A DNA stretch of 64,000 nt from contig NZ_KB933398.1 in NCBI RefSeq assembly GCF_000392615.1, positions 3,077,039-3,141,038 of the forward strand, written 5' to 3'. The position numbers and the translations under genes were made by a program. Positions 5,735 through 47,037 of the stretch are shown here, one piece after another; the stretch's first letter is position 1, and each line of letters opens with the position of its first letter. This DNA comes from Lysinibacillus sphaericus OT4b.31 (GTDB lineage Bacteria > Bacillota > Bacilli > Bacillales_A > Planococcaceae). The notes beneath the pieces were generated by a model. That model saw only the letters and a program-made list of their open reading frames with translations. It was not told the DNA's origin and did no database searches.

Positions 5735-5958
5735 TATAGACGTACACGAGTTGATTGGCGCGTAGGCGGCGACTTCTGCAAAGAATAGCATGAACTGAAT
5801 GCCCCGCAGGAGCGTAGCGACGAGGAGTCTGAAGCCATAGTCTGAAGCCATGCCCGCGAAAAGCATCCTCCGTAGCTATAGCAACGGGTTCATTTAGATA
5901 CTTCTATATTTAAAAGAAGAGAGACTGTAAACAAACTCAGTTTTTTGAGGTTGTCTAT
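5735..5958 (-). repeat. GC-rich dispersed repeat, copy 1
   Basis: One of six copies of a ~165-bp repeat. Its recognisable blocks are ACGAGTTGATTGG, GGCGGCGACTTCTGC, CCCCGCAGGAGCGTAGCGAC, GAAGCCATGCCCGCGAAAAG and CAACGGGTTCAT. Read on the minus strand it follows a small hairpin and a CAGTC-T-rich tract (5929-5958). It contains a tandem duplication of the 12-mer GTCTGAAGCCAT (5827-5838 and 5840-5851), at the same place where two other copies carry a miniature transposon. Confidence 0.8.
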
Positions 5959-8701: not shown

Positions 8702-8782
8702 GATTTCTTTTAAGATGCGATAGAAAATCTGTTTAAATATAGCTGAATCTTTAATGCGACGTTCATAATTGTCATCGATAGA
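8702..8782 (-). pseudogene. IS1182-family transposase internal remnant
   Basis: Reading from 8782 on the minus strand gives SIDDNYERRIKDSAIFKQIF, then YRILKEI. This corresponds to the segment around residue 95-125 of IS1182-type transposases (FGKNYERRFKD..IFYRIL). It is directly joined to a dispersed repeat and is lost after about 27 codons. Confidence 0.6.
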
Positions 8783-9093
8783 CCTGCACTAGTTGGTTGG
8801 AGCGCAGGTGGAGGAGCGACTAGGAGACTGAAGCCATCATAGCTGTCAACTTAACAAAAATGTGTACTCTTTCGAAAAAGATGGTATGGATAAATACAAA
8901 TCTTTTTTGGAAGGAGTCATTTTTATGAAGACACCGAAAAATATACAGTTACTCCAAAAGAAATAAAACACACCATTCTTCTTGAAAAATTAAACAAATG
9001 AATGGTTGGAAATCTAAAGTTGACAGATATGGACTGAAGCCATGCCCGCGAAAAGCGTTCGCTGTAGCGGAAAGAAACGGGTTCATATAGAGT
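8778..9093 (-). repeat. GC-rich dispersed repeat, copy 3, split by a miniature element
   Basis: The two halves (8778-8837 and 9032-9093) are parts of the same repeat, separated by the 194-bp element. About 50 bp of the usual core (the CTTCTGCGGGAATAGC..CCCCGCAGG part) is missing. Its left edge abuts the IS1182 internal remnant and its right edge abuts a second short IS1182 5' piece. Confidence 0.7.
8838..9031 (+). mobile_element. IS231-like miniature element (MITE), copy A
   Basis: 194 bp. The left end is CATAGCTGTCAACTT; the right end, reverse-complemented, is CATATCTGTCAACTT, a 15-bp inverted repeat with one mismatch. It is flanked by a perfect 12-bp direct repeat, GACTGAAGCCAT (8826-8837 and 9032-9043). 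Inside are a ribosome site plus ATG (MKTPKN) and, in another frame, an ending (KEIKHTILLEKLNK, stop), as expected for an internal-deletion derivative of a transposase gene. CAT..TCAACTT ends and 11-12-bp target duplications resemble the IS231 group of IS4; that assignment is inferred. Confidence 0.8.
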
Positions 9094-9183: not shown

Positions 9184-9360
9184 TAGACGTACACGAGTTG
9201 CTTGGAGCGCAGGCGGCGACTTCTGCGGGAATAGCATGAGCTGAAGGCCCCGCAGGAGCGTAGCGACGAGGAGACTGACGCCATGCCCGCGAAAAGCGTC
9301 CGCCGTAGTGAAAAGCAACGGGTTCATATAGATAGTTCTATTTTAAAAGAAAAAAGACTG
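9184..9360 (-). repeat. GC-rich dispersed repeat, copy 2
   Basis: An essentially full-length copy running from ACGTACACGAGTTG to GGGTTCATATAGATAG. On the minus strand it starts immediately after the T-tract of the thioredoxin terminator. It includes the self-complementary CTGCGGG..CCCGCAG pair that could fold into a hairpin. Confidence 0.85.
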
Positions 9361-13009: not shown

Positions 13010-13122
13010 CTATAGACAAACTCAAAAAATTGAGTTGTTTACAGTTTTTTTCTTTTAAACATTGAAGTATATATGAACCCGTTGCTTTCCGCTACGGCGG
13101 ACGCTTTTGCAGGCATGGCTTC
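13010..13122 (+). repeat. Dispersed repeat, copy 4, truncated, with terminator-like hairpin
   Basis: A hairpin (ACAAACTCAA and TTGAGTTGTTTACAG) followed by TTTTTTTCTTTT leads directly into the repeat start (TATATGAACCCGTTGC, then TTTCCGCTACGGCGGACGC). The repeat stops after GCATGGCTTCA and fuses to an unrelated sequence. The orientation is opposite to copies 1-3. Confidence 0.75.
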
Positions 13123-13223
13123 ATTTTGGACATCGCAAAGACCAAAAATGGAAGAAAATAGTTATTCGTAGCGTACTACTGTCGTTGCTAATAGGGGTTA
13201 TTCAAACTACTATTTCTGATAAA
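13107..13223 (+). pseudogene. Possible C-terminal fragment of a membrane protein
   Basis: The frame reads HFGHRKDQKWKKIVIRSVLL and SLLIGVIQTTIS: a basic stretch followed by a hydrophobic one, like the end of a membrane protein. It has no ribosome site, begins inside the truncated dispersed repeat and runs into a terminator. I read it as the tail of a gene whose front was replaced by the repeat. The parent family is unknown. Confidence 0.35.
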
Positions 13224-32785: not shown

Positions 32786-33950
32786 TGACCCAAAAAAGTT
32801 AGACAAATATTTTAAGCAGCTTCTAAGATTTGAGTCCGGTATTGTACCGGACTCAGATCTTTTAATTTTGCCTTCATACGATTGTGATTATAGTAATGAA
32901 TATAGGCATCCAATTCTTTTTCAAAGTGCTCCATACTTTCAAATTCTTGCAAGTAAAGCAACTCAGACTTTAATAAGCCAAAGAAATTTTCCATGACAGC
33001 GTTGTCTAAACAATTTCCCTTACGGGACATACTTTGTATGATGGCATGCTCCTTTAATGTCCTTTGATATTTTTTCATTTGATAATGCCAGCCTTGATCG
33101 GAGTGAAGGATGACTTGATCTTCAGGTTTTAAACGCTTAACTGCTTGTTCTAACATATCACCTACAAGTTGATAAACCGGTCGTTTCATTACTTTATAGG
33201 CAATGATTTCCCCATTGCATAAATCAATGATTGGTGATAAATAGCGCTTCTCTCCGAATAAATGAAATTCGGTTACATCGGTTACCCATTTTTGATGCAT
33301 CTTCTTTGCTTTAAAATCTCGCTGGATTACATTTGGGGCAATGCGTCCAACATTCCCTTTGTAAGAGCGATACTTTTTCAATCGAACGAGGCACTTTAAG
33401 CCCATTTCATTCATTAAACGGTTGATGGTCTTGGGATCATGAGAAAATCCAAGTTTCTTTAATTCTTTTGTGATACGACGATAACCATAACGTCCTTTAT
33501 GTTCATGATAAATGGATTGGATAGTTGTCTTCACTGCAGAATATTTATCTTTTCGGTTCAAACGCTTTTCCCAATAATAATAGGTGCTACGTGGAATACC
33601 AGCGACTTTGATAAGGGCCACGACATCATAGGTTACCTTTAGTTCATAAATTACTTGCGCTTTGATTTTGGATGTAATTTTTCCTGCATTTGAATTAAGT
33701 ACATCCATTTTAAACTCCGCAGAATAACTTGTATAGGATTTCTTAAATCCCTCTTCTCCTTGTACTTGATATAAACAGACCCATCCTTGAATCATTTGAT
33801 AAGAAACCTTATATAAATCTTGAAGTTCCAAATAACTATGTTTCCCCTCAAGGTAAAGACGAGCCATGAATACTTTCTCTTCGGCAGTAAAGTTTGCCAT
33901 AAAAAAACACCCCTAAATCGTTAGATTTGGTGTCTAACAATTTAGGGGCA
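32786..33950 (-). mobile_element. IS3-family element, IS150 group (1165 bp)
   Basis: The left end TGACCCAAAAAAGTTAGACA and the inverse of the right end TGCCCCTAAATTGTTAGACA agree at 16 of 20 positions and have the TG..CA termini of IS3 elements. The flanks (GATC left, GTTC right) show no target duplication. At the right end a 14-bp inverted repeat (33912-33925 with 33933-33946) covers the transposase ribosome site, a known way to block translation from read-through transcripts. It is about 250 bp shorter than typical IS150 members. Confidence 0.85.
32812..33900 (-). CDS. IS150-type transposase, OrfA-OrfB fused by deletion
   Basis: 362 residues. Residues 1-70 ([20 protein letters not shown] onward, to FKMDVLN) are the first HTH of OrfA. 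From about 78 ([22 protein letters not shown]) the sequence is OrfB. The second HTH and leucine zipper of OrfA (~90-100 residues) are missing, and the two parts are joined in one frame, so the usual programmed frameshift is absent. The DDE catalytic residues remain: Asp in VTDVTEF, Asp in LHSDQGWHY and Glu in [13 protein letters not shown]. Activity is doubtful without the missing DNA-binding part. Confidence 0.88.
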
Positions 33951-34324
33951 GTTCATATAGAAGTATCTATATGAACCCATTGCTTTCCGCTACGGCGGAC
34001 GCTTTTCGTGGGCATGGCTTCAGTCCATAGCTGTCAACTTAACAAAAATGTGTACTCTTTCGAAAAAGATGGTATGGATAAATACAAATCTTTTTTGGAA
34101 GGAGTCATTTTTATGAAGACACCGAAAAATACTAGTACCCTTTTTCAAAAGAAATAAAACACACCATTCTTCTTGAAAAATTAAACAAATGAATGGTTGG
34201 AAATCTAAAGTTGACAGATATGATGGCTTCAGTCTCCTCGTCGCTAAGCTCCTGCGGGGCCTTTTCACTCATACTATTCTTTGCAGAAGTTGCCGCCTGC
34301 GCTCAAATCAACTAGTGTACTTCT
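33951..34324 (+). repeat. GC-rich dispersed repeat, copy 5, split by a miniature element
   Basis: It begins at the IS150 right end with an inverted repeat (GTTCATATAG..CTATATGAAC), continues as CCATTGCTTTCCGCTACGG to GGGCATGGCTTCAGTC (34025), is interrupted by the miniature element, resumes at 34223 and ends near CTCAAATCAACTAGTGTAC. Its end abuts an IS1182 transposase fragment. Confidence 0.8.
34026..34222 (+). mobile_element. IS231-like miniature element (MITE), copy B
   Basis: 197 bp, nearly identical to 8838-9031 with the same inverted ends (CATAGCTGTCAACTT / CATATCTGTCAACTT). It is flanked by perfect 12-bp direct repeats ATGGCTTCAGTC (34014-34025, 34223-34234), the reverse complement of the duplication around copy A. 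The copies differ mainly at the internal junction (34127-34145), where this one has three more bases. No complete ORF. Confidence 0.82.
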
Positions 34325-46689: not shown

Positions 46690-46880
46690 ACGATAGATGA
46701 GTCTTGAAAGCCGCATTTATAATTTTTACCGAATGTTAGGAAAATATGGCACTTCGGTAGGAAAACCAAATCCTAAAAACCAACGATACGCCATGTTCGT
46801 TTGGATTTCTTTAATCGCACAGAACAAATACCAAATACATATTGAATAAATGTATTTTACTAGAACAATCGGATCAATAC
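46690..46880 (-). pseudogene. IS1182-family transposase internal remnant, frameshifted
   Basis: On the minus strand it reads SIDPIVLVKYIY, then IKEIQTNMAYRWFLGFGF and VPYF; after a frameshift near 46735 the match resumes as TFGKNYKCGFQDSSI. This is the region of about residues 38-105 of IS1182-type transposases (RPSIDPV..NMAYRWFLG..FGKNYERRF). It begins exactly where dispersed repeat copy 6 ends. Confidence 0.75.
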
Positions 46881-47037
46881 TTGATTGGAGCGCAGGCGGC
46901 GACTTCTGCGGGAAAAGCATGAACTGAAGTCCCCACAAAAGCGTAGCGACGAGGAGACTGAAATCATGCCCGCGAAAAGCGTCCGCCGTAGCGGAAAACA
47001 ACGGGTTCCTATAGATACTTCTATTTGAAAAGAAAAA
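46881..47037 (-). repeat. GC-rich dispersed repeat, copy 6
   Basis: A near full-length copy (TTGATTGGAGCGCAGGCGGC to CAACGGGTTCCTATAG). On the minus strand it begins in the T-tract of the sigA terminator and ends at the IS1182 remnant. Confidence 0.85.

Follow-up and report, generated by a model that had tools for sequence, protein, structure and literature searches.

Two short elements within a dispersed repeat

The window, a stretch of 64,000 nucleotides from the genome of Lysinibacillus sphaericus OT4b.31, carries two short elements, both on its plus strand. Copy 1 (8838..9031) is 194 bp long and is flanked on that strand by the 12-bp target duplication GACTGAAGCCAT at 8826..8837 and 9032..9043. 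Copy 2 (34026..34222) is 197 bp long, and its flanks on the same strand, ATGGCTTCAGTC at 34014..34025 and 34223..34234, are the complement of GACTGAAGCCAT. Both 12-bp duplications are perfect. The inverted ends, CATAGCTGTCAACTT and CATATCTGTCAACTT, match at 14 of 15 bases, and the end sequences are identical between the copies. Since the two elements lie on the same strand of the window, they stand in opposite orientation relative to the repeat that hosts them. An earlier note, made from the sequence alone, had proposed these coordinates, ends and duplications, as well as a shared target entered in opposite orientations, and on all these points the flanks and strands agree with it. It had also treated both copies as one unit of ~195 bp, which they are not: their ends are identical and their deletion junctions differ.

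Both insertion sites are intergenic. One lies between genes for TPR-like and thioredoxin-like proteins, the other between an IS3-type transposase gene, itself located after an IspH-like gene, and a response-regulator-like gene (all names from reading the translations). An IS3-type element with a 362-residue ORF, its family likewise read from the translation, occupies ~32787-33951; its right end is ~13 bp from the repeat holding copy 2, and no clear target duplication was found for it by eye.

The host repeat has a 148-base consensus, in which the duplicated target begins at base 87. The repeat split by copy 1 spans 8772..9091 on the plus strand, where it was traced through direct-repeat families D1-D3 and an nhmmer match at 9032-9091, its left part being diverged; the one split by copy 2 spans 33964..34320 on the minus strand (two nhmmer matches). 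Uninterrupted copies are found on the plus strand at 9188..9334 (the profile seed and best match) and, by nhmmer profile search, at 5741..5900 and 46875..47017; the same search gave a partial copy at 13070..13140 on the minus strand. Outside the window there were 6 matches in 400 kb, or ~15 per Mb, which at up to ~148 bp each amounts to ~0.2% of the sampled sequence. At this density, it would be extremely rare for two insertions at random to hit one base of the repeat. All nine sampled stretches that carry the motif GACTGAAGCCAT have it inside the repeat. In the window the repeat has no Rfam match at the gathering threshold, and three copies showed no more folding than their shuffled counterparts (z -1.60, 0.89 and -1.20), so a structured-RNA reading was rejected. 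Partial matches to the repeat, covering ~65% of the query at 77-79% identity, occur on three Priestia megaterium plasmids. Two half repeats, L139 (G000:C1:118588) and L142 (G000:C1:623092), begin with or close to GACTGAAGCCAT, the DNA to their left being unrelated or shortened; they could be scars of lost insertions or of adjacent deletions. At another locus (L033, 2425-2575), a gap of 100 N comes right after sequence resembling the end of the repeat, with apparently another IS beyond it.

A structure scan covered 473,323 bases of this genome (the window, 20 evenly spaced 20-kb stretches and 3 loci), looking for elements of 90-420 bp in which 14 or more of 16 end bases match and the flanking repeats are exact over 8-14 bp; copy 1 and copy 2 were its only results. 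The inverted ends alone, with 3 mismatches allowed, gave 8 matches in the window against 8.77 expected, which is chance level. The departure from chance rests on ends, duplications and position combined.

The parent element and its relatives

Searching the same genome with the element gave 7 matching stretches, comprising the two window copies and three longer ones. In two of the latter (L038 and L039) a gap interrupts an element that has both ends and the beginning of a transposase, and the third (L040) has the right end and the transposase C-terminus, running into a gap; each gap is exactly 100 N in a draft assembly of 71 contigs. Up to their junctions the short copies are identical to the longer ones, copy 1 over its first 123 and last 77 bases and copy 2 over its first 106 and last 98. 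The flanks of L038, L039 and L040 are GACTGAAGCCGT, GACTTACGCCAT and GACTGACGCCAT, respectively, that of L040 being readable on one side only; wherever a repeat flank is readable, in five copies out of five, the same base of the repeat is used. A sixth end, L041, has decayed and sits in DNA not recognisable as the repeat. The draft contains no complete parent copy, and transposase residues 109-361 have no match in it. The Pfam DDE domain gave four weak partial matches in the genome, none of them at element copies, and when just the start of the transposase was compared with Pfam, the one match, to Nif11, was below threshold.

Full-length relatives elsewhere are ~1.6 kb long with transposases of ~400-480 residues. 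Those of L067 and L075 score above the cut-off for NCBIfam NF033592 and also match Pfam PF01609, which places them in the IS4 family; the assignment is made on these relatives, the parent of the window copies being known only in pieces. The Y(2)R(3)E(6)K pattern is present in 31/31 distinct proteins of at least 400 residues, a count that leaves out 13 loci without an ORF of that length. The end pattern CAT-------AA--TAA is fitted by the left end of the window copies and by both ends of their close relatives; the right-hand end of these copies, CATATCTGTCAACTTTAG, is one base off, and the ends of the elements in genomes G036 and G126 do not fit its AA. Target duplications are 12 bp in the window and 10-13 bp in the relatives, with 13 bp in one of them (L086). 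Taken together, the longer copies in the same genome and the relatives with an IS4-family transposase agree with the IS231-type relationship that the earlier note had suggested, and the two short copies appear to be internally deleted forms of a ~1.6-kb element of this type.

In the host's family, 24 of 261 genomes have a match at E 1e-60; at most 6 candidates were scored per genome, making copy numbers lower bounds, and two further G048 copies were added. At class level, 5 of 398 genomes match at E 1e-100, two of the five belonging to another family. The sole named relative found is in Oceanobacillus jeddahense. No copies of the IS were found on plasmids at E 1e-60. In genome G027, two of three full-length copies (L071 and L072) have no intact transposase ORF despite intact ends and duplications.

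Target sites across the clade

Target sites were tabulated for 68 records, made up of 64 loci and four copies from the present genome, and 62 of them have a resolved duplication. Leaving out the six without one (L109, L121, L123, L126, L127, L129) and three G038 copies classed as classical IS231-like gives 59; L074 and L084, at contig ends of G231, were also retrieved, as were L133-L138, and all of these stand outside the count. Sites were assigned by eye on oriented contexts (L076 and L112 were given the opposite orientation by the script), and repeat membership in relatives rests on similarity between insertion sites together with aligned contexts. With a repeat profile trained on G000, 200 kb of G182 gave 4 matches once the profile had been retrained, and 200 kb of G048 gave none; nor did a profile seeded from G048 find any.

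On this basis, the host repeat contains 56 of the 59 resolved insertions, in 21 genomes, and three fixed positions account for 54 of the 56. At site 1 (21 insertions) the 12-13 bp duplication starts with GRCT in every case, GGA precedes it in 17 and GCCC follows it in 18; the four insertions lacking the preceding GGA (L076, L080, L085, L130) mean that a GGA core is not absolute. At site 2 all 27 insertions have a duplication of 10-12 bp that starts with GTC and is preceded by GGA, with one mismatch in the duplication of L096. Site 3 has 6 insertions. Of the remaining two, L091 is displaced by 3 bp and L120 lies elsewhere in the repeat. The insertion site of L130 is similar only to that of L129, whose decayed duplication (10/12 by eye) is at site 1. 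Both orientations occur within nine genomes, which indicates many separate insertions. Copies with unrelated flanks, which the earlier note had named as evidence against its proposal, do exist and are few: three of the 59 (L068, L088, L093) lie outside the repeat and match no other insertion site, L068 and L088 having GGGA|G and L093 lacking it. With all five readable copies here and 56/59 in the clade at the repeat, the note's claims of target-specific insertion and of the dispersed repeat as a landing pad have stood, and the preference belongs to the whole IS clade. The specificity is a property of the full-length IS.

On a tree of 32 transposase rows, with classical IS231-like rows as outgroup, six site labels require 7 changes, against a mean of 15.0 for shuffled labels, and 0 of 200 shuffles were as low; near-identical rows inflate this clustering, and the labels were assigned by the author, with L120 counted as site 2. 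The users of site 1 all fall within a single supported clade, of 14 rows; that clade also includes G048, a user of site 2, and two rows for insertions outside the repeat. A long-branch warning at the site-3 group makes its placement unsure. We lean, by a little, towards the view that an IS231-type clade in the Bacillales has specialised on one dispersed repeat, with lineages switching among at least three fixed positions, so that the repeat would serve as a genome-wide set of attachment sites.

Two other accounts of this pattern were weighed. If the IS inserted widely and only insertions in harmless repeats persisted, intergenic positions such as those of both window sites would be expected, but survival of this kind is improbable as the source of the pattern: the repeat's share of the sampled sequence is far below that of all intergenic DNA, the base within the repeat is fixed, and seven classical IS231-like copies (five in G038, one in G022, one in G065) match no repeat site. 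Still less credence is due to a single insertion followed by duplication of the occupied repeat. Several occupied sites in G048 do share long similar flanks, but the two orientations in nine genomes, the differing duplications and the differing junctions of the window copies all speak against it, and we regard it as very improbable. For the window copies themselves, duplication with inversion of one occupied repeat is rejected by their opposite orientation and different junctions, which uphold the independent insertions claimed in the earlier note.

Probably, then, the window copies are deleted remains of an IS231-type insertion sequence whose insertion is mostly targeted to the repeat. The DDE transposase of this IS4-family element would direct most insertions to a single dispersed intergenic repeat and, in this genome, to a single base of it, with a 12-bp duplication and in either orientation. 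Recognition may rest on a short core around GGA|G, read by sequence or by shape in surroundings that the repeat provides, and the staggered cuts of the transposase would lie 10-13 bp apart. The repeat would offer a plentiful and mostly harmless landing pad, sparing the host and leaving many free sites. The window copies would have arrived as two separate full-length insertions, each of which then lost ~1.4 kb between microhomologies of 6 or 7 bp.

Origin of the short forms and comparison with known systems

Copy 1 consists of parent bases 1-123 joined to the last 77, with a 6-bp microhomology (CAAAAG) at its junction (8955..8960, plus strand), and copy 2 of bases 1-106 joined to the last 98, with a 7-bp microhomology (AAAAATA) at 34125..34131 (plus strand). 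Overlaps of this size are not rare, as 74 of at least 6 bp, the longest of 11 bp, exist between the two parent ends compared. Each junction was seen once among the 7 matches in this genome, and 20/20 end pairs in five relatives are full length (G048 8, G182 5, G027 3, G079 3, G171 1).

In biological terms, the simplest reading is that full-length elements inserted and then lost their interiors in place, and with fair confidence we take the short forms to be real deletions. This reading requires a coincidence, namely two independent deletions that leave 194 and 197 bp. With the centre of this IS missing from the assembly, false closure keeps some probability: a full-length IS may be present at both sites, the assembler having joined its edges over a chance overlap of 6-7 bp, in which case the target specificity would stand and the short forms would not exist. 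The draft state of the assembly, the 100-N gaps in the three longer copies, the unmatched transposase centre, the absence of a short form from the 20 end pairs and the nearly equal size of the products (from 106-123 and 77-98 end bases) are all in line with such closure. On the other hand, the window contains no N, overlaps of 6-7 bp are in general short for an assembler to join on, and read pairs can span ~195 bp, which would explain why short copies are closed and long ones are not. Gap closure is thus doubtful, though far from negligible. The earlier note's proposal of a mobile, non-autonomous ~195-bp element, with a full-length transposase moving the short forms in trans into the repeat, is also unlikely, and rather more so. 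In its favour, neither copy has lost its ends or its perfect duplications, elements with intact ends are plausible substrates, the similar sizes might stem from a limit on what can transpose, and IS231-related mobile cassettes (MIC231) are known by title from PMC2266710. Yet each junction was seen once, with no sign that a short form has multiplied, and the five relatives have full-length elements throughout.

Deletion in place thus remains our preferred reading. MIC231 and bacterial MITEs have IS ends without a transposase gene. The window copies share this feature, keeping IS ends and target duplication with no transposase gene, but they have no cargo, and instead of one short form in several copies there are two copies with two junctions, each occurring once, with no sign of moving as a unit. 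MIC231 and bacterial MITEs are listed among the reference titles of PMC2266710. That paper describes the IS231 subgroup of the IS4 family by CAT-------AA--TAA ends, direct repeats of 10-12 bp and the YREK pattern. The present clade resembles the subgroup, as described there, in size, CAT ends, duplication length, YREK pattern and IS4-family DDE transposase; it differs in targeting one dispersed repeat rather than scattered sites. In our survey, the classical IS231-like copies carry GGG on one side of their duplication and lie outside the repeat; the insertion sites of L125 and L126 are similar to each other.

The targets of cut-and-paste DDE transposases are usually loose. Here the landing pad stays the same across a clade and the exact base shifts, which provides a natural series for finding the part of the transposase that reads the target. 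The pattern also suggests a role as transposon landing site for a Bacillales repeat to which, within the window, no Rfam family matched at the gathering threshold, and the repeat may be a safe place for jumping genes to insert. Among the literature matches listed, nothing concerned this repeat or IS231-type elements targeting a Bacillales repeat; some of the elements may already be named.

Repeat-targeting insertion sequences are already known, one of them in the IS4 family. PMC1525189 names ISRm22 (IS4 family, 10/10 copies in REPs), ISPpu9, ISPpu10, ISPsy8 and IS1397 as targeting REPs; the words Bacillus and IS231 are absent from that paper. Like those elements, as described there, the present clade has its insertions at a fixed base of a repeat that is extragenic and dispersed. 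The target here is not a short palindromic REP, being ~148 bp long with no folding signal in the three copies; unlike the REP-targeting elements (PMC1525189), whose hosts carry such REPs, the present case joins a ~148-bp Bacillales repeat to an IS231-type clade that uses three positions within it.
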